From Candidatus Nitrotoga fabula (GTDB taxonomy: Bacteria > Pseudomonadota > Gammaproteobacteria > Burkholderiales > Gallionellaceae), in assembly GCF_905221025.1 (NCBI RefSeq), contig NZ_CAJNBL010000007.1:1-64000 (forward strand): a stretch of 64,000 bases of DNA. Direction: 5' to 3'. Made by a program: the position numbers and the translations under genes. Positions 16,655 to 27,229 of this stretch are shown piece by piece; within the stretch, counting starts at the first letter, position 1, and each line of letters begins with the position of its first letter. The notes beneath the pieces were generated by a model. The model searched no databases, was not told the origin of the DNA, and saw only the letters and a list, made by a program, of their open reading frames with translations.

Positions 16655-17812
16655 TCATGATAATGTTCTAGCAACACGAATCCCTGTATAAGCATTACGG
16701 TTCAACTGGTCACACATGAAACGAACAGCACAACGGGCATCTCTTGGGTCAATCATCCAGGATCCTCCGCGCAGAACCCGCCATTCCTGATTGCCAAGTG
16801 TGCTCACTGCGCCATCGGACAACCAAGCGCTTCCATCCGTAGGAGCCCCATTGTAGGTATCATGCCATGCATCTTCAACCCATTCCCACACATTTCCTAG
16901 CATGTCATGCAAACCAAACTTGTTTGGTGAAAAACTGCCCACCGGCGAGGCACGCCGACAACTCCATTCGCTCTTGCTATCCTGGCAATTGCAATTGTTT
17001 TTTCCAAGCTCATCTCCCCAGTAATACTCCGTCGCCGACCCAGCACGACACGCATATTCCCATTCTGCTTCTGACAATAAGCGGTAGTTTTTGCCCGTCT
17101 TCGTCGATAGCCATCGCACATAGGCTTGTGCATGCACAAAATTAACATTGGTTACCGGTAGGTTGTCACCAGGCCATCCATTATCTGCAGGGGAATAAGA
17201 ACATCCGCCAGATGCAACGAATTGCCTCCATTCGGCTACCGTGACTGGATATCGGCTCACAGCAAAAGAATGGGCAATAGTGACTTTATGCTTATTCGAT
17301 ACTTCGCCCATACGAAAACTTCCCCTGGGTATCACTACCATTTCTGGGGCATCCGGTCCATCGCGAAAAATATGGGTAGTTCCCGCCTCTTTTGCTGCTG
17401 CAATTGCGGCTTGTTGTATTTCCGTGATTGTCCAGCACTCTATGCCTATTGGCCCTTTTAATTCATCCCTCTGTTCCAAAAACACGGACTGCGCCTGTCC
17501 ATGCTCTTCCGCCATCCTAATGAAAAAGGAGATATCCTCATTCTTCAATGCCTGCACCCACTCATCTTCTATTAGGCCATCGCATGTTTGAGCATTAATG
17601 AGGTGACTTCCAGCAGGTAAGAAAAACATTCTGGATATGTTTTTATCCAATTGCCCTTGATCTTGACCATTGATCATGAGACGACAATCCATATCGCTCT
17701 CTAGCGACAGGCAGATGTTTTGATTTGCTGAACCTTTTCTGCTGGAAGGATTTTCATCAAGGTTGTGAGCATTTTGCTGTTGAAAATACTCTTTATGCAA
17801 TTCCTTGCTCAT
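16655..17812 (-). CDS. SUMF1/FGE-fold protein, paralogue 1 of 4 (PEGA-like N-terminal domain)
   Basis: First (most downstream) of four tandem paralogues. Residues ~32-115 form a small domain shared with paralogues 2 and 3 (motif SDMDCRLMINGQ, then LPAGSHLINA), resembling PEGA-type surface domains. Residues ~155-385 are a formylglycine-generating-enzyme/C-type-lectin-like domain: MVVIPRGSFRMG, LPVTNVNFVHAQAYVRWLS, LLSEAEWEYACRAG, YYWGDE, NNCNCQDS, DMLGNVWEWVED and a C-terminal RVLRGGSW...GIRVAR. The cysteine pair needed for sulfatase activation is absent after GGSW, so true FGE activity is unlikely. No signal peptide. ATG preceded by AGGATGG. The function is unknown; a binding or ligand-display role is possible. 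Confidence 0.85.
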   Translation of the reverse strand: MSKELHKEYFQQQNAHNLDENPSSRKGSANQNICLSLESDMDCRLMINGQDQGQLDKNISRMFFLPAGSHLINAQTCDGLIEDEWVQALKNEDISFFIRMAEEHGQAQSVFLEQRDELKGPIGIECWTITEIQQAAIAAAKEAGTTHIFRDGPDAPEMVVIPRGSFRMGEVSNKHKVTIAHSFAVSRYPVTVAEWRQFVASGGCSYSPADNGWPGDNLPVTNVNFVHAQAYVRWLSTKTGKNYRLLSEAEWEYACRAGSATEYYWGDELGKNNCNCQDSKSEWSCRRASPVGSFSPNKFGLHDMLGNVWEWVEDAWHDTYNGAPTDGSAWLSDGAVSTLGNQEWRVLRGGSWMIDPRDARCAVRFMCDQLNRNAYTGIRVARTLS

Positions 17813-17924
17813 TCATAACCATCCTGTGTTAAAAAAGTTGAGATATTGAAAAGTAGAGATTCTGGAACGCAGGCAATATACCCACCGTCATTCATTTCTT
17901 GCCACAGGCTCTTTTCTTTAAAAG

Positions 17925-17947
17925 ATTCGGGCACAATCAGCCCGAAT
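17925..17947 (-). terminator. Possible terminator downstream of FGE-like paralogue 2
   Basis: Inverted repeat ATTCGGGC (17925-17932) and GCCCGAAT (17940-17947) with a 7-base loop. On the minus strand the stem is followed by CTTTTAAAG, a weak T-tract. It would partly separate paralogue 2 from paralogue 1. The T-run is short, so efficiency is doubtful. Confidence 0.4.
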
Positions 17948-18031
17948 ATCATCCGTAGCCATCACGGCCATCCTTCGCGCCCAGACACACAACACCGTTA
18001 CCTACATGAAAAATCAGGGAGACAAGCCAAC

Positions 18032-18050
18032 GATTGACTTGAAGTCAATC
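18032..18050. repeat. 9-bp palindrome (possible operator)
   Basis: GATTGACTT (18032-18040), one base, AAGTCAATC (18042-18050). The near-zero loop makes a protein-binding palindrome more likely than a terminator. A related palindrome with the same TTGACTT/AAGTCAA halves occurs at 27105-27120. Confidence 0.3.
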
Positions 18051-18146
18051 TGAACAAAAATCTTCTAGGAAACCCCGTCCATCACTTTAAAACCAGGGCA
18101 GTATCTGCTCTGATATTCAGGATCCACCATGCAATTATTTACCGTT

Positions 18147-19235
18147 TTACGGCAAGGTTCTCGCCAGGCGAAGGCCGAAATTACAATTTCTTACAGAGGG
18201 GACACTCCCAAGGCGGTGGGCACAGCGCGCATATTGCGGGAAACTGCTCCAAGAACCTCCCCGCATAACACGCCCAAGCGGATTTCCTCCGACAACCCAT
18301 GCTCCACCGTCAGTCGGGGATTCTTCGTAATTATCATGCCAGATGTCTTCCAACCACTCCCATACATTTCCTAGCATATCATATATACCAAAAGCATTGG
18401 GCTTAAAGCTTCCGACTGGAGAAGCAGACCTCCGGCTCCATTCACTCCCGCTATCCTGGCAATTACAGTTATTATGACCTATTTCATCGCCCCAATAATA
18501 TTCCGTCACAGTCCCGGCACGACTTGCATATTCCCACTCCGCTTCAGACAACAAACGATAAGTTTTGCAAGTATGGGCTGACAGCCAGCGGACATAGTTT
18601 TGAGCATCATACCAATTGACATTGGTGACCGGGAGAGTGTCTCCTTCCCAGCCATTATCCGATGGAACATACGAAACTCCGCTATTCTCGACATAATATT
18701 TCCAATCTGCCACCGTCACTGGATATTTGCCTATTGCAAAAGAACAAACAATATTAACCTTAAATTTATTATTTGCATTTCCCCTGCGATAACTACCTGC
18801 AGGTATCACTACCATTTCCGGAGTAACCGGAGTATCGCGAAAAACTGGATCGAGCCCTGCTCCCAATGCAGCCAACATTTGTTCTTGCTGAATCCTTCCC
18901 TCAGGCCAACATTCAATACCCAATGGCTCACGAACTTCTGCTTCACGTACTGCTCGTAACCGGTCATAATCATCCGCAAGGCAGACCAAATGAACAACCT
19001 GTTCTTTCGAGCTAATATTTTGCGTCCACTCTTTTTCCAACAACCCATCCTGAGTAATGACATTGATTACATGTGCACCAAAAGGCAACTCAATAGCAAA
19101 AGGAGTATTTTTCTGAAGTGCTCCATAATTATCGTCATTAACCATGAGGCGGCAATCCATATCGGTTTTAAGTAGCAAAACCGCTTTCTGCCAGCATTCG
19201 GATTCCTGTACTTTCTGTTTCCCCATGTTAGTCAC
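18147..19235 (-). CDS. SUMF1/FGE-fold protein, paralogue 2 of 4 (PEGA-like N-terminal domain)
   Basis: Same architecture as paralogue 1: an N-terminal domain with KTDMDCRLMVND and LPFGAHVINV, then an FGE/lectin-like domain with MVVIPAGSYRRG, LPVTNVNWYDAQNYVRWLS, LLSEAEWEYASRAG, YYWGDE, NNCNCQDS, DMLGNVWEWLED and RVMRGGSW near the end. The frame is open to 19376, but the GTG at 19235 follows GGGGAGAATCGG, matching the AAGGAGGAAGATCGG-GTG start of paralogue 3; this gives 362 residues. An ATG lies three codons further in. No signal peptide and no catalytic cysteine pair. The last 45 residues differ sharply from the other copies at scattered positions. Confidence 0.85.
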   Translation of the reverse strand: MTNMGKQKVQESECWQKAVLLLKTDMDCRLMVNDDNYGALQKNTPFAIELPFGAHVINVITQDGLLEKEWTQNISSKEQVVHLVCLADDYDRLRAVREAEVREPLGIECWPEGRIQQEQMLAALGAGLDPVFRDTPVTPEMVVIPAGSYRRGNANNKFKVNIVCSFAIGKYPVTVADWKYYVENSGVSYVPSDNGWEGDTLPVTNVNWYDAQNYVRWLSAHTCKTYRLLSEAEWEYASRAGTVTEYYWGDEIGHNNCNCQDSGSEWSRRSASPVGSFKPNAFGIYDMLGNVWEWLEDIWHDNYEESPTDGGAWVVGGNPLGRVMRGGSWSSFPQYARCAHRLGSVPSVRNCNFGLRLARTLP

Positions 19236-19428
19236 CCGATTCTCCCCTGTCGCTCTCCATCCATTTTTATTCCGGATGCCATATCGGTTTTTCCTGCCCG
19301 ACTGGCTTCTGACAACTAAGAACACATAACAGGAACATAACTTGTCGCTTGCGCTTCCTATCAGAACAATCCGCAACCTAATTAAAAGATCAGCACTTAT
19401 TTATGTAGCCATCACTACCAGGATGTCT

Positions 19429-20643
19429 TTAAAAACTGGATTCGCTTTCTTTATCGGCATCAACATCCGGCACATCCAGCATGCTGGCTACCCGGAACCC
19501 GAAATCATCGTATCGACTGGATGTTACAGCCCTGGCACGGCTTGCAGAACGCGCAAGACGCGGACCGCAATCCCATGATCCTCCCCGGACCACCCGGCTC
19601 TGCTGATTACCCCCATAAGTCCATGCGCTTTCATCTGATGGAGCCCCCTCGTAATTATTATGCCAGTGATCTTGTACCCATTCCCAAACATTTCCCAGCA
19701 TGTCATGCACACCAAACACATTCGGGGCGAAACTACCCACTCCTGAAGCACGCTTGCAGCTCCATTTACTTCCGCTATCCTGGCAATTACAATTATTTGC
19801 GCCCAGTTCGTCTCCCCAGTAATATTCCGTCATTGATCCCGCCCGGCAGACATATTCCCATTCCGATTCAGTCAACAGACGATAAGTCTGCCCCGTCTCG
19901 GCAGATAACCAGCGCACGTAGTCTTGGGCATCAAACCAACTGACATTGGTTACTGGTAGAGTAGTGCCCACCCACCCATTATCCGATGGGCGATGAGGAG
20001 GATATTCTGGCTCAACGTAAGGTTTCACCTCACTGCCATCACCTTCTGCGCCAAACAGGATACTCATTGGCTCTTGTTTGACTATACTTTTGGCATCAGC
20101 AAATCGATACCACTCCTCAACGGTAACTGGATATTTCCCGACAGCAAAGGAGCGAGAAATAGTTACTTTATGCTTATCAGATTCCTCGCCCATTCGATAG
20201 CTGCCCGCTGGAATTACCACCATTTCCGGAAAACCGGGACCATCGCTGAACTCCGGAGCAACCCCTGCTTTTTTTGCCGCCTCAATTTGCATTTGCTTTA
20301 TCTGCTCCACCGAAAGACATTCAATACCCAGTGGATGGCGCATTTCCTCCTCCAGCTTTGCTCGTTCGAAAGCATGCTGTTCAGCGAGACGGATGCTATG
20401 CTCGATAGTTTCTTCACGATAAAGCGGCTGCACCCATTCTATTCCCACCAAGCCATCTTTCGTAGAAGCATGAATTAGTGGATAACCCAGTGGCAGATCA
20501 AAGGTGCGCGGACAATCCCTTTCCAGCAAACCTTGATCCTCGCCATCAATAACAATGTAACAATCAATATCCGCTTCCAGTAGCAAAGTGGCTAACTGGA
20601 TACGTTCGGTCTCCTGATATTTTTGTCCTTCCTGATCAATCAC
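19429..20643 (-). CDS. SUMF1/FGE-fold protein, paralogue 3 of 4, with C-terminal acidic tail
   Basis: 404 residues from a GTG at 20643 with a strong AAGGAGG ribosome site. The N-terminal PEGA-like domain (EADIDCYIVIDGED, LPLGYPLIHA) is followed by a charged linker and the FGE/lectin-like domain (MVVIPAGSYRMGEES, LPVTNVSWFDAQDYVRWLS, LLTESEWEYVCRAG, NNCNCQDS, DMLGNVWEWVQD, RVVRGGSW, GFRVAS). It differs from its neighbours by a ~25-residue insertion with PYVEPEYPPHRP before the PSDNGW segment and by a C-terminal extension of about 17 mostly acidic residues after the lectin fold. One cysteine follows GGSW, but the second catalytic cysteine is missing. Function unknown. Confidence 0.85.
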   Translation of the reverse strand: MIDQEGQKYQETERIQLATLLLEADIDCYIVIDGEDQGLLERDCPRTFDLPLGYPLIHASTKDGLVGIEWVQPLYREETIEHSIRLAEQHAFERAKLEEEMRHPLGIECLSVEQIKQMQIEAAKKAGVAPEFSDGPGFPEMVVIPAGSYRMGEESDKHKVTISRSFAVGKYPVTVEEWYRFADAKSIVKQEPMSILFGAEGDGSEVKPYVEPEYPPHRPSDNGWVGTTLPVTNVSWFDAQDYVRWLSAETGQTYRLLTESEWEYVCRAGSMTEYYWGDELGANNCNCQDSGSKWSCKRASGVGSFAPNVFGVHDMLGNVWEWVQDHWHNNYEGAPSDESAWTYGGNQQSRVVRGGSWDCGPRLARSASRARAVTSSRYDDFGFRVASMLDVPDVDADKESESSF

Positions 20644-20870
20644 CCGATCTTCCTCCTTGCATGTTTCTTAAAATTTGGTTGTGTTCACAATGCCCAATTA
20701 TTTCGACAATAATATGCTGAATAAAAACCCACGCAACCTGATTAGCGCCTAAAATAACTATTTTAAAATAATCTGGATATTCGCTCTATATAGTAACGCA
20801 ATCCGTAATCACAACTGATTGGAAAATGATATCCCGTTGACCGCATCAAGTTATGTTATGTATCCGCCTG

Positions 20871-21800
20871 TTACAGCGCTCTTGCAACACGGAAACCGAT
20901 GCCATAATTTCGAATTGAAGGCTCAATCCACAATCGAAGAGGTGCGCGCGCATCACGCGGGTCACTATCCCAACAACCTCCACGTATCACACGCCACTGG
21001 CGATTTCCGCCATATTTCCATGCGGTTCCATCATTCGGAGCACCATCGTAATCATCATGCCATACATCCTCTACCCATTCCCATGCATTGCCCAGCATGT
21101 CATACAAACCGAATGCATTGGGCCTAAAGCTATTCACAGGAGAAGCGCTTTTAGCACTCCATTCGCTTCCGCTACCCTCACAATTACAATTGTTTTGACC
21201 AATCTCATCGCCCCAAAAATAATCTGTGACTGTCCCTGCACGACAGGCATATTCCCATTCCGCTTCCGATAAAAGTCGATAAGTATGCCCCGTCTGGGTT
21301 GATAACCAGCGAACATAATCCTGTGCATCAAACCAGTTAACATTAGTTACCGGTAACTCGCTGTTTGTCTCTTTGATATAACTTAATACCTCATGATGCA
21401 AATCTGTTGCCTTCCCTGGAGCCTTAAGCAGAGTTTTGTGGAAACCGCGTACGGTGCCTGTACCAGCGAGGTATCCGGGACCAATGCCAGGTAATTTTTC
21501 TGCCTTGGGTCGCAGCCTTTCGGTAAAAAGTTTCCACTCTTCCACCGTAACCGGGTATCTTCCTACCGCAAATGGCCGCGCAAAAACAACCTCATGCTTG
21601 TCGAATAACTCACCCATACCGTAGCTACCCGCAGGAAGCACCACCATCTCCGGGGTATTCTCACCATCACGGAACACTGTATCTTCCAGCCCTGCTGCCC
21701 TAGCTGCATCTTTTTGTGCTTGTTGTATTTGCTCGACCGACCAGCACTCTATGCCCATCGGCTGGTTCAACTCTTCAATCGTTTTTTGATCATCGCTCAT
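20871..21800 (-). CDS. SUMF1/FGE-fold protein, paralogue 4 of 4, lacking the PEGA-like domain
   Basis: First gene of the minus-strand array. The ATG at 21800 follows CGGAG at good spacing and is preferred to the longer frame start at 21851; this gives 309 residues. It lacks the N-terminal PEGA-like domain and begins almost directly at the shared MGIECWSVEQIQQAQ segment. The FGE/lectin-like domain is complete: MVVLPAGSYGMG, LPVTNVNWFDAQDYVRWLS, LLSEAEWEYACRAG, NNCNCEGS, DMLGNAWEWVED, RVIRGGCW, GFRVAR. It carries a ~40-residue insertion (GIGPGYLAGTGTVRG and following) between the PVTVEEW and LPVTNV segments. No catalytic cysteine pair. Function unknown. Confidence 0.84.
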   Translation of the reverse strand: MSDDQKTIEELNQPMGIECWSVEQIQQAQKDAARAAGLEDTVFRDGENTPEMVVLPAGSYGMGELFDKHEVVFARPFAVGRYPVTVEEWKLFTERLRPKAEKLPGIGPGYLAGTGTVRGFHKTLLKAPGKATDLHHEVLSYIKETNSELPVTNVNWFDAQDYVRWLSTQTGHTYRLLSEAEWEYACRAGTVTDYFWGDEIGQNNCNCEGSGSEWSAKSASPVNSFRPNAFGLYDMLGNAWEWVEDVWHDDYDGAPNDGTAWKYGGNRQWRVIRGGCWDSDPRDARAPLRLWIEPSIRNYGIGFRVARAL

Positions 21801-22264
21801 GATATCTCCGTGGCTTAATGAATGCAGTCGCAGGGACTGATATTTCCGCAATCAAAGGGCCATAAAGGCACCGTAGCACGGTCTATCCTTAATTAATCCA
21901 ATGCAAAACTCCAGCCAGACCTGATTAATATTCCGGGTTATCCATAAAACCCGGGCCATTTTGCAGGATAGCCCAAGACATTCTCTACAGTCAATGATGA
22001 ATAATGACACGCAGCTAATATTTCCCGTATTTGCCAACACACACCCATCCGGCCAAAGGCCTGCCCTACAGTTACGGCACAAGCATCCGTTCATCTGCTT
22101 ATAGACAAAAGCCATTTATCATTCCAACCCTGAAAATCCCCTGAAATGGAATCAGGCAACCTCGCCGACACAAATTTTCGCGTGCAAGATGGATGCAAAA
22201 CGCTGGGAAACGGTAATCATCCTGGTGGGCTGGAACATTTTTTCGTTACCCACCAAAATATGCA
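21801..22264. other. Intergenic region between the TonB receptor and the FGE-like array
   Basis: About 460 bases with no supported gene; an 87-codon minus-strand frame (21852-22115) has no family resemblance or clear ribosome site. TGGTGGG (22223-22229) and CCCACCA (22249-22255) form a long-loop hairpin just after the receptor stop but lack a T-run. An ACCTGATTA motif at 21919-21927 recurs upstream of paralogues 2 and 3 in slightly varied form. Confidence 0.5.
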
Positions 22265-24337
22265 TTACTCTTGGTAACTCAGCCCCAGGAATAGCATCCG
22301 CCCCGGCAATGGGTACGCGTTATATCTTCCTGGAACAAACTGGCTACTTACCGCATAATTATAATAATCTCTGTCAAACAAATTATTCACGGTCGCACTT
22401 ACCTGCCACGGGCCTTTTGTATGTATCAGCTTGATATCAGCAATCGTATAAGCCGGGATTTTGGTGCCAAAACTATTGGCCTGGTCGTTATCCATAAATT
22501 GAGAACCAACATAAACAATGGATGCATTCAAGAAAGTTTTTTCGTGAACAGTCCAAGCCAGGCCCAGATTCAGCTTACTGACAGGCACCAGGGGTACTTT
22601 CTTGTCAGCAAGATTTACATTGGTTTGTGTAAATACGCCGCCATCTAAGGTTCCACTTAAAAATTTTGCATTGATATATGTATAAGCAGCATTTACTACC
22701 AACCAGGGAGATACCTTCCACTTTCCATCCAGTTCCATCCCCCTGCGCAAGGTCGGTGGCAGATTGGTATTGCCAATACCTGTACTATATGGATCCAGAT
22801 GGATTTCGTCCCGCACCTTGATATTGAAAATGGACATCCTCCATCTTCCTTTACCCAAGCGATGCTCTGCGCTGATTTCATAGGTGTCTGAGGACTGTGG
22901 GCGTAAAAATTGAAACTGATTGGAAAACGATGGTGACGATTCATAAATTTCATCGATATTTGCAAATCGGAAACCCCGCCCAATTTTTCCGTTCAACGAA
23001 AAATTATCAGAAAGCTTATGGTGCAAGCCTAGTTCATAAGCATTTCTCGATCTTGCGAAATAACCCGGTGGAGCAGCAGAACCAAAAATTCCACCGGGAG
23101 CAGCATCATTGTAAACATCATAAGCATTCATAGAAACCCGTTCATTCCGCATCCCGGCCAACAGGGATGTTGCCTGGGAAATATAAGTCGTATTTTGTAA
23201 ATACCAGGCACTATTTTTCTGGGTGGAGAATATCTGATTGATTGGCTGTCCGATATTCATGGGAGAGTTAGACGTTTGCAAATCATAATTCCAGCGATAC
23301 AGATCCATTCCTGCTACTAAAATACTCCCCCCTCCTAATGCATGCGGTAGCTTGATCCGGGGTGTAAACGAAGTCATGTGCATATCTCCGTCCCGGTAAT
23401 TCGGAAACCCATTAAAATCAAAAAAAGATTTTTGATTCTTGGTGCGCCGTGCCACTCCTATATTGACATCCGCTTCAGAAAAACGCTGCTTCCATTCAAC
23501 AGCAACCCAATTGCCATCACGACTGGCGTAATCCAGTGGGGTGGCCGTACCGCGGGGATCCGTTTCCACCAGATTGATCCCGGCATCCGGTTGAACCAAA
23601 CGTGCACCAGGCAGGCGGATTTCCTGCCGGTCAATGCCCAATTTCAATGCCAGCTCACCTGCACTAAATTTCCATCGTGTATTTGCCTGGACATTGGTCT
23701 GTTCATTTTGATTATTCGCCCGATATCCATCAGTGTTAAATCGACTGGCTGTGATATCAAAACCTGTTTGCCCTGAAAAATAATTCGCATTCGCCTGGAC
23801 CTCGGCCATTCCATAGCTACCAGCTTTTACACTGATCTTGCCGGATTTCCCTGCTTGTGCAGGCGACTTTGTGATGATATTAATAACGCCGTTTGTAGCA
23901 CCGTCACCATACAAAACCGAGCCACTACCACGCATCACCTCAATACGTTCGATGGAGGCGAATGGAATAGCCGACCACTGAACCCCAGAAAGATCAACAT
24001 CAGTAATACGCCGCCCATCCAGCAGAATTAAGGTATTTTGCCCGGCAGCCGCACCAAATCCACGCATATCAACCGTGGTAGATGAAGCATTGTTTCCAAA
24101 TAAATCCCGCGCTAAAATACCTGCATGCTGCGTAAGTAACTCTGGAATGGTGCGCGCACTGCTTTCGTTGATCATATCCCGCGTGATAACGGATATGCCT
24201 GAAAGCTGGTCTGCGAACGGTTCTTCGAATCGCATCCCCGTGACAACAATTGTTTCAAGGACAGGGTCTTCGGTTATTGCATAAGCAAACGTGGTAGCCC
24301 CACCCAAAATGGCGGCAACCAATTTTTGACATTTCAT
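22265..24337 (-). CDS. TonB-dependent outer-membrane receptor, probably for cobalamin (BtuB-like)
   Basis: Outer-membrane beta-barrel transporter powered by TonB-ExbB-ExbD. A signal peptide (residues 1-20, ending FAYA) is followed by the TonB box-like ETIVVTG, a plug domain (VITRDMINESSARTIPELL, VDMRGFG, LILLDGRRITD, IERIEVMRGSGSVLYGDGATNGVINIITK) and a C-terminal barrel ending near NLFDRDYYNYAVSSQFVPGR. The frame opens at 24361, but the ATG at 24337 behind CAGGAT starts the signal peptide directly; this gives 690 residues. The cobalamin riboswitch directly upstream on the same strand is the main reason to assign vitamin B12 or a related corrinoid as ligand. No other B12 gene lies nearby. Confidence 0.9.
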   Translation of the reverse strand: MKCQKLVAAILGGATTFAYAITEDPVLETIVVTGMRFEEPFADQLSGISVITRDMINESSARTIPELLTQHAGILARDLFGNNASSTTVDMRGFGAAAGQNTLILLDGRRITDVDLSGVQWSAIPFASIERIEVMRGSGSVLYGDGATNGVINIITKSPAQAGKSGKISVKAGSYGMAEVQANANYFSGQTGFDITASRFNTDGYRANNQNEQTNVQANTRWKFSAGELALKLGIDRQEIRLPGARLVQPDAGINLVETDPRGTATPLDYASRDGNWVAVEWKQRFSEADVNIGVARRTKNQKSFFDFNGFPNYRDGDMHMTSFTPRIKLPHALGGGSILVAGMDLYRWNYDLQTSNSPMNIGQPINQIFSTQKNSAWYLQNTTYISQATSLLAGMRNERVSMNAYDVYNDAAPGGIFGSAAPPGYFARSRNAYELGLHHKLSDNFSLNGKIGRGFRFANIDEIYESSPSFSNQFQFLRPQSSDTYEISAEHRLGKGRWRMSIFNIKVRDEIHLDPYSTGIGNTNLPPTLRRGMELDGKWKVSPWLVVNAAYTYINAKFLSGTLDGGVFTQTNVNLADKKVPLVPVSKLNLGLAWTVHEKTFLNASIVYVGSQFMDNDQANSFGTKIPAYTIADIKLIHTKGPWQVSATVNNLFDRDYYNYAVSSQFVPGRYNAYPLPGRMLFLGLSYQE

Positions 24338-24355
24338 TATGATATCCTGAGCAGA

Positions 24356-24376
24356 TTCCAAGGCTCCCCGTTGGAA
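24356..24376 (-). promoter_or_regulatory. Hairpin in the riboswitch expression platform
   Basis: TTCCAA and TTGGAA (24356-24361 and 24371-24376) flank a G-rich loop just upstream of the receptor ribosome site. It may belong to the expression platform that hides or exposes the start, but the stem is short. Confidence 0.3.
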
Positions 24377-24485
24377 TGTTCAAACACGGAAAATGCTAAT
24401 TGATTGAAGCGGCATACCTTCCATCAGCCACTATGACTCTCAGCACTTGCCGACCCAAAGAACCTCTATTGAGATTCCTGTGCTC

Positions 24486-24800
24486 AAGGCCGGTATCCGG
24501 GCTTGCAGGACTAGACGCATCGCCTTCCCATGATTGCTCACAGTGGCTTAACCTGAATGTGGATCCGCATGCGCTTTTACCATTTACCAGAATCTAATTC
24601 CTGGCAACGAAATCCTTTGCGCCAGAATAAAATTACCTATCTGATGAACGCAAAGCAATCTTCACGCAAATTTTGATCTACCAGATTATTGACACGCCCG
24701 CACCTGCTTACCGTTGCGGGGGCAGCACAGGCTTTAAGAGATCGAACTCCCTCACCTGTTTCCCGTTTAACCAGACGATACTAGCAATCTGGCACCCAAA
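24486..24800 (-). promoter_or_regulatory. Cobalamin riboswitch controlling the TonB receptor
   Basis: On the minus strand the conserved elements occur in the correct order: GGTGCC (24791-24796), TTAAACGGGAA (about 24759-24769), GCTGCCCCCGCAACGGTAAGC (about 24706-24726), GCCACTG (24541-24547), GGGAAGGC (about 24522-24529) and the B12 box AGCCCGGATACCGGCC (24488-24503). The segment between GTAAGC and GCCACTG is about 158 bases, long for this variable arm. The receptor ATG lies about 150 bases after the B12 box. Adenosylcobalamin binding would be expected to lower expression. Confidence 0.95.
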
Positions 24801-25173
24801 GCGGCGCGCATTATATCAGACGTGACCACACGGTTTGCTCCATGCCGGAGCCTCCCAAAACGAATCCCCCTTTATAATTCCTCCAGCACAAAGGGGCAAA
24901 CCTCTACATCCATGAAGATTGCAATTTCCCAGGGCGCTACGTAATATTCAGCATGGACTTGCATTACCTTCCATGGCAAAAGCTGCATGTAATCAATCCT
25001 CACTCAGCTTGAATTTTCTCGACATTACTTTGTATCAGACCCTTTCAAAATTAAATGAACCTAATTTTATTGGTGTAATTTCATCTTGCTAAAGTGCATC
25101 TCGGCAACATGATAAAATCAACGCTATTATTCATAAATGTTTTTAATGCAACACTGGATTTAGGACCCCGTTC
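24801..25173. other. Divergent regulatory region between the cobalamin riboswitch and hemL
   Basis: 373 bases without a supported gene. It should hold the minus-strand promoter for the riboswitch and receptor and the plus-strand promoter for hemL. No hexamer pair stands out strongly enough to be called. Confidence 0.5.
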
Positions 25174-26455: not shown

Positions 26456-27079
26456 ATGGGAATTTTTTCAAGCGCAGCATTTTTTACTACCGTTAATCAA
26501 TTACGCGATTTGCCCATTCACATGGGTAAGGAAGTGGCCTTCGCCGGGCGCTCAAATGCAGGGAAATCCAGTGCCATCAATACGCTAACTAATCAGGTGC
26601 GTCTGGCGTATACCAGTAAAACTCCAGGACGTACGCAGCATCTGAACTATTTTGATTTGGGCGAGAATCGATTTCTGGTGGATTTGCCGGGTTATGGTTA
26701 TGCTAAAGTACCTCCAGGAATAAAATCGCACTGGGAAGCATTGCTGAGCGGATATATCCAGACGCGTAGGTCATTATGCGGGCTGGTTGTCATAATGGAT
26801 GCACGGCATCCTCTTACCCAGTTGGATGAACAAATGCTGGAGTGGCTTAAACCTACTGGCAAGCCTGTACATGTGCTGCTGTCCAAATCAGACAAACTAA
26901 GCCGCCAGCAGGCTTCTCTAACCTTGGACCGGGTTCGACTGCACCTCGCAAAATTTTTTCCATTTTGTTCGGTTCAGCTATTTTCCAGCCTGAAAAAAAC
27001 AGGCATGGATGAAGCGGAAGAAGTTATTGCCAGTTGGTTTTCTGCTGATTTCCAGACAAAAAAAACCCCTGGTCAATAA
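26456..27079 (+). CDS. engB: GTP-binding protein EngB/YsxC (ribosome biogenesis)
   Basis: Small essential GTPase needed for large-subunit ribosome assembly. The G1 P-loop is GRSNAGKSS (31-39), with KTPGRTQ as switch [11 protein letters not shown] as G3 and LSKSDKLS as G4. 207 residues. The ATG lies directly after the hemL stop with no clear ribosome site of its own, which suggests translational coupling to hemL. The last codons overlap a strong hairpin (27066-27094). Confidence 0.96.
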
Positions 27080-27094
27080 AGTAAAGACCAGGGG
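27058..27094 (-). terminator. Strong hairpin at the engB stop; intrinsic terminator when read on the minus strand
   Basis: CCCCTGGTC (27066-27074) and GACCAGGGG (27086-27094) form a perfect 9-bp stem. On the minus strand it is followed by eight T; on the plus strand no T-run follows. It would therefore stop minus-strand transcripts entering engB from the right. On the plus strand it may only be a stable 3' structure. Confidence 0.6.
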
Positions 27095-27229
27095 CGTAAA
27101 TGCCTTGACTTTTAAGTCAAAACACCCCGCTCAGGGAGGAAAAGCGGGAGACGACATTGCATCATCTGCAACATAAGATGAAACAATAATGAAAGAGTTC
27201 CAACGCAAATAAAAAATTTTGGACTTTAA

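Follow-up and report, generated by a model that had tools for sequence, protein, structure and literature searches.

The stretch analysed here (the window), 64,000 nucleotides from the genome of Candidatus Nitrotoga fabula (draft assembly, 2.3 Mb, 44 contigs, completeness 100), carries a tandem array of four genes whose products share the sulfatase-modifying formylglycine-generating enzyme (FGE) domain. Our comparative data indicate, with a probability of about 0.8, that these genes are old tandem duplicates of a PvdO-like protein with the FGE fold, which is C-type-lectin-like, that they are fixed in Candidatus Nitrotoga, a genus placed by NCBI within the Gallionellaceae, and that they encode stable, specialised proteins. 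A first-pass annotation had read the scattered differences at the C-termini as a pattern resembling the targets of a diversity-generating retroelement (DGR).

The four open reading frames (ORFs), arranged on the minus strand in the order g4-g3-g2-g1, have products 326-409 residues long, each with an FGE-sulfatase domain; all four matched Pfam PF03781 (E 8e-51 to 5e-53; 174-181 bits against a curated cut-off of 23.3), bearing out the annotated array of SUMF1/FGE-fold genes. The first array gene, g4 (20871..21851), encodes 326 aa from a TTG, an ATG near 21800 being the likelier start by eye, and consists of the FGE-fold domain with the tip RGGCW-DSD-P-RD-AR. A small N-terminal beta domain precedes the FGE-fold domain in g3 (19429..20643; 404 aa from GTG; tip RGGSW-DCG-P-RL-AR), in g2 (18147..19376; 409 aa from TTG, with an ATG near 19226 likelier by eye; tip RGGSW-SSF-P-QY-AR), and in the last array gene, g1 (16655..17812; 385 aa from ATG; tip RGGSW-MID-P-RD-AR), and these motifs are as quoted by the annotation. 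The C-terminal stretches equivalent to a DGR variable region (VR), also on the minus strand, lie at 20886..20984 in g4 (33 codons from RGG), 19489..19587 in g3, 18165..18263 in g2, and 16673..16771 in g1. Identity to g1 is 53-58% for g2-g4, and the whole genome holds eight PF03781-type genes.

Conservation of the array across the genus

The array was present in 14 of the 18 other genomes of the genus, the four genomes without it being 71, 91, 83, and 97% complete. In two of the 14, a contig end truncates the array (at g1 in G103 and at g4 in G106), and the gene order is identical wherever it can be read. Among the 12 nearest homologous loci, nine came from Candidatus Nitrotoga records, at 69-72% identity. 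In a tree of 73 rows, including 14 array rows from four genomes, the array rows grouped together with 99/99 support, and among them g1, g2, g3, and g4 each formed a separate clade. Since separate orthologs of every gene occur throughout the genus, duplication came before the array-bearing species arose.

To compare species, we set the four window genes beside 55 genes of relatives (59 in all). At the nine tip sites on which the annotation had based its argument, 514 of 531 residues were the majority residue of their group, and the variable nucleotide columns at codon positions 1, 2, and 3 numbered 6, 1, and 33 of 36, respectively. The corresponding counts were 7, 2, and 37 of 40 at ten sites defined from three true DGR templates; for the part of the domain preceding the VR they were 224, 155, and 699 of 815. 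In AAY codons, DGR mutagenesis alters positions 1 and 2, which are the best conserved here; the codon-position pattern of between-species change is thus the opposite of adenine mutagenesis, and the substitutions at template-adenine sites for which the annotation had proposed comparing relatives gave way to third-position changes. The annotation had also named an even spread of differences over codon positions as a sign against its reading; the differences instead crowd on the silent third position.

The tips themselves vary little: g2 reads SSF-P-RY in 13 of 14 relatives (SSF-P-QY in the window), g3 reads DCS-P-K in relatives (DCG-P-RL in the window), and the g1 tip, which can be read in 13 of the 14 relatives, is IID in most of them (MID in the window). 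Gene-specific columns, that is, columns fixed within genes and differing among at least three of the four genes, crowd the C-terminus in the alignment of the 59 proteins (12/32 versus 13/191 earlier; P 1.5e-5). The annotation was therefore right that the copies vary at the C-terminal sites used by DGRs.

Search for retroelement machinery

No reverse transcriptase (RT) match to PF00078 was found in the 44 contigs of this genome, the same family giving matches in three of 14 genomes of a control set. In the sister genomes, PF00078 matches occurred in 10 of 18, at 18 places, all of which were inspected; a DGR motif was seen at none of them, one place being cut before the motif. SP-type and SQ motifs serve as signs of RT class. 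Ten of the 18 places show SP-type motifs, in the style of group II introns or retrons, and the remaining eight, judged by eye, show no SQ motif, one of these being the place cut before it. With a DGR-type RT as query, three sister genomes gave matches, all of them weak (E 4.5e-9 to 8.6e-11).

The positive example for motif reading was L027 (uncultured Latescibacteria, OY282377.1), a complete-looking DGR with the RT motif GLPIGNLTSQ, a template near 724, and three variable regions (6654, 8670, and 12344); the ORFs that contain two of these regions, 547 and 566 aa long, combine a kinase (by eye) with an FGE domain. In the genome of L023, which has FGE genes, an RT match (G158:C420:817-1146) is 68% identical to the L027 DGR RT and has one internal stop, perhaps representing a broken DGR.

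Searches with the four VRs, each against the array's own genome only, gave no non-self DNA match above 33 bits, whereas the templates of three true DGRs were recovered at 120-129 bits when blastn was run on each of those loci alone. The annotation's report that the window lacks an RT and a template repeat thus extends to the whole genome. In the literature, we found no paper joining Nitrotoga with formylglycine and none in which a diversity-generating retroelement appeared together with Gallionella or Gallionellaceae; a word search of the available text of two genome papers (PMC6050957, PMC10734462) did not return formylglycine, sulfatase, or retroelement.

Divergence among the four paralogs

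At fourfold sites, the window paralogs differ about equally in the VR (0.68) and in the preceding part of the domain (0.69); with majority codons, the values are 0.45 and 0.49. Among the shared framework codons of the VR, 9 of 11 differ among the four genes, in line with the annotation, which had itself counted these codons against recent activity, and the variable columns among the four VRs at codon positions 1, 2, and 3 number 20, 18, and 27 of 33. With synonymous divergence equal inside and outside the VR, no shared template rewrote the tips, and one shared template acting after duplication is ruled out, since it would have made the four VRs alike; separate templates, or an element that preceded the duplications, may be compatible with the data. 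L027 was unsuitable as a contrast because its upstream codons are also alike (14/153 synonymous differences versus 4/61 in the VR).

Codon pattern at the tip sites

The annotation's count of 34 of 36 codons ending in C or T (NNY) at the nine sites of the four genes is exact. Given the amino acids and the codon usage of the window, 29.7 would be expected (P 0.006, a post hoc value for sites picked after the data were seen, with a real choice of codon in only 13 of the 36). Many of the residues at these sites (D, N, Y, F, H, and C) have NNY codons exclusively. When sets of four were drawn from 48 control genes, L027 among them, 34/36 was reached in 2% of draws. FGE genes outside the genus also run high (45 genes with 317/405 NNY against 297 expected; z 2.95), so the pattern is not special to this array. 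The NNY pattern is real and mostly a matter of amino acid composition; as a sign of AAY template codons, the reading given to it by the annotation, it retains an excess over expectation and loses its specificity.

The ten sites defined from true DGR templates, which partly overlap the choice made in the annotation, a point that bears on all codon P values given here, show 37 of 40 NNY codons against 31.2 expected (P 0.0015; 0.0044 with majority codons), whereas the other VR sites show no significant excess (P 0.40 in the window and 0.12 with majority codons). Serine at the template-defined sites is encoded by AGY in 5 of 5 cases in the window, compared with 32 of 63 upstream. That chance or composition alone produced the NNY count becomes less probable in view of this template-site excess and the 2% draw rate. 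In addition, one or more of the three true templates have AA or AGG at 15 of 28 positions, and these 15 include 10 of the 12 gene-specific VR sites (P 0.008).

A similar footprint was evident well beyond the array. In 26 FGE genes from 23 genomes without a detected DGR-type RT (a status resting on one 237-residue query at a threshold of E 1e-12), serine at DGR-equivalent sites was AGY in 23 of 25 cases, compared with 167 of 320 upstream (P 8e-5). Among the A, G, I, L, P, T, V, and R codons of the same genes, NNY codons made up 67/92 at template-defined sites, 263/424 at other VR sites, and 1309/2786 upstream; the excess thus belongs in part to the whole C-terminus, because the other VR sites are also raised. 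The serine effect was likewise present in 39 control genes (30/35 versus 256/496; P 7e-5) and fell short of significance in 19 genes from Gallionellaceae loci lacking a DGR RT (20/23 versus 167/237; P 0.14). Since FGE genes of RT-negative genomes share it, the AAY-like footprint marks the wider FGE family and not this array; it may stem from DGRs active long ago, from RTs that escaped detection, or simply from ancestral asparagine codons.

DGRs do occur in the family. In other Gallionellaceae genera, 14 of the 20 RT loci examined show the DGR motif, and in two genomes (L186 in G115, L187 in G013) an FGE target and an N-rich template stand side by side, with 17 and 18 changes on template adenines and 1 and 0 elsewhere, respectively. 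At a third locus of the family (L188, G054:C30), an FGE gene adjoins an RT remnant with two in-frame stops, possibly a decaying DGR. In two further genomes of the family (L170 and L171), DGR-type RTs lie beside a different short stretch, RGGYW...GVFNL...GFR.

Fold and likely function

The AlphaFold model of g1 (mean pLDDT 90.5) has PvdO (PDB 5hha) as its closest solved fold (Z 32.3, 2.0 Å, 234 residues), and PvdO is also the closest sequence among solved structures. The alignment covers g1 residues 137-384 and leaves the N-terminal beta domain outside; the array differs further from PvdO in having four copies in a row, and its proteins score 158-177 bits against the PvdO family model NF051459 (NCBIfam), below the cut-off of 500 for an equivalog. 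According to the available part of PMC6206403, PvdO is periplasmic; the array proteins have no signal peptide by eye and would be cytosolic.

TvpA, a DGR variable protein (2y3c), also matched the g1 model closely (Z 28.5, 2.2 Å, 223 residues), which places g1 in the C-type-lectin fold with a C-terminal VR. With the FGE-subclass DGR variable proteins (TvpA; Mtd, 1yu3; the FGE targets of L027, L186, and L187), the array shares the fold and the variation of copies at the same C-terminal sites; unlike them, it has no RT or template that we could find, its sites are near-fixed between species, and its framework codons are unshared. Formylglycine-generating enzymes proper (2q17, 6muj, human SUMF1) have PF03781 and the fold in common with the array. 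In copper FGE, a cysteine pair, at the second and seventh residues after the aromatic residue following RGGS (6muj), serves the copper site. This pair is absent from the array: in an ungapped register, to be read with the caveat that the profile alignment itself places a three-residue insert there, the seventh residue is Ala in all four proteins and the second is I, S, C, and S in g1 to g4. The FGE-fold homolog GldK/PorK, by its family name the ring lipoprotein of type 9 secretion, is to our knowledge without enzyme activity; the array proteins reach 60-83 bits against its cut-off of 350.

The domain core is deeply conserved across the array, and by equivalence to DGR variable positions the gene-specific columns would line one surface pocket. 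We therefore propose a scheme in which the last ~35 residues of each protein, judged from fold and conservation, may form a surface that binds its own constant ligand, the duplicates having become specialised through ordinary selection and remained fixed thereafter. The accessible part of PMC5006420 describes the FGE/C-type-lectin fold as a motif for ligand binding in general, which may have enzymatic activity as well. Binding over catalysis is favoured by the absent FGE cysteine pair, and within the scheme a pure binder appears somewhat more probable than a PvdO-like catalyst. Catalysis stays possible because purified PvdO also had no detectable cofactor and was nonetheless needed for an oxidation (PMC6206403, in the part available).

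The N-terminal domain of g1 (17456..17722, minus strand; approximately residues 31-119) comprises seven strands and one helix, with a homologous stretch in g2 and g3 that is absent from g4. It gave no Pfam match in g1, g2, or g3 and no convincing relative in a sequence search of solved structures (best E 0.66), and fold searches returned only weak beta-sandwich matches (best Z 8.4, 3.6 Å, 79 residues). This domain may act as a partner-binding module.

Genomic neighbourhood

The array is surrounded by thiE, thiD, a TonB receptor resembling B12 and siderophore receptors, and hemL. Downstream, thiD follows the array in 12 of the 13 relatives whose stretch extends that far. The upstream TonB receptor (22265-24361, minus strand) adjoins the array in just 5 of the 11 relatives whose flanking sequence is long enough and was for this reason not adopted as a partner of the array. 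The best family model for this receptor is the vitamin B12 receptor, with a score below the cut-off, and a Cobalamin riboswitch (24471-24814, minus strand; 70.4 bits) lies just upstream of it. Farther along, an anti-hemB sRNA (Rfam RF02837, 64.6 bits; 27058-27151, minus strand) is located upstream of, and opposite to, the porphobilinogen synthase gene (27233). Promoter- and terminator-like sites were no commoner than in shuffled sequence (11 versus 11.0 and 5 versus 5.4, respectively).

Alternative explanations

Continuing diversification of the array by a DGR, whether in cis or through an element elsewhere, would account for the fold, the location of the sites, and the NNY codons. For the genomes compared here, it was rejected on the evidence of RTs and codon positions and of templates in the array's own genome, with the near-fixation of the residues across species pointing the same way, and we regard it as extremely improbable. 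Of the three origins offered by the annotation, namely relics, trans-targets, and convergently diversified binders, the trans-targets accordingly fall away and the relic is kept at low odds. Under this last explanation, an ancestral element set the four pockets before the genus radiated, the pockets were frozen when the element was lost, and the codons keep an AAY imprint. The position of the gene-specific sites on template AA/AGG positions, the NNY excess at the template-defined sites, the FGE-type DGRs of other genera of the family, and the FGE gene beside an RT remnant in G054 all speak for it. We nevertheless consider it unlikely: the VR was not homogenised between paralogs, most of the shared framework codons differ (9 of 11), FGE genes show this footprint even where no DGR-type RT was detected, and pocket positions are where specialisation would be expected to act anyway. 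In the tree, moreover, the array stood apart from the five DGR-linked rows, with weak support for the deeper placement (88/44).

A different possibility is that the four genes encode working enzymes of the PvdO/FGE kind acting on different substrates, which corresponds to the catalytic branch of the specialised-duplicates explanation and overlaps with it. The closest solved structure and the conserved domain core fit such enzymes, whereas the missing copper-site cysteines and the low PvdO-model scores do not, and no pyoverdine-type genes occur among the ten named neighbours; we hold this to be a minority possibility, better placed than a relic. Several observations also weigh against the specialised duplicates that we prefer. 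Their proposed function is drawn from fold and conservation. The AAY-like footprint, including the NNY excess at the template-defined sites and the uniform AGY serines of the window, is not needed by this explanation. At the nine sites, g1 differs in 17% of pairwise residue comparisons, compared with 1.5% in g2 and g4, and its C-terminus as a whole differs by 12%, compared with 5% in the other array genes. Finally, the array in G096 (L153) has no adjoining thiD.

Implications

Our findings demonstrate that a fixed array of paralogs in a lectin-like fold can easily mimic retroelement diversification when a single genome is read, and that the codon position of between-species change, together with the synonymous divergence of the framework, separates the two. 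If the four tips were relics of a DGR after all, they would represent rapid, targeted diversification that evolution captured and froze. On the same reading, the imprint in FGE genes of genomes without a detected DGR-type RT would mean that DGRs commonly end in this way, the element being lost while a single selected variant is kept.

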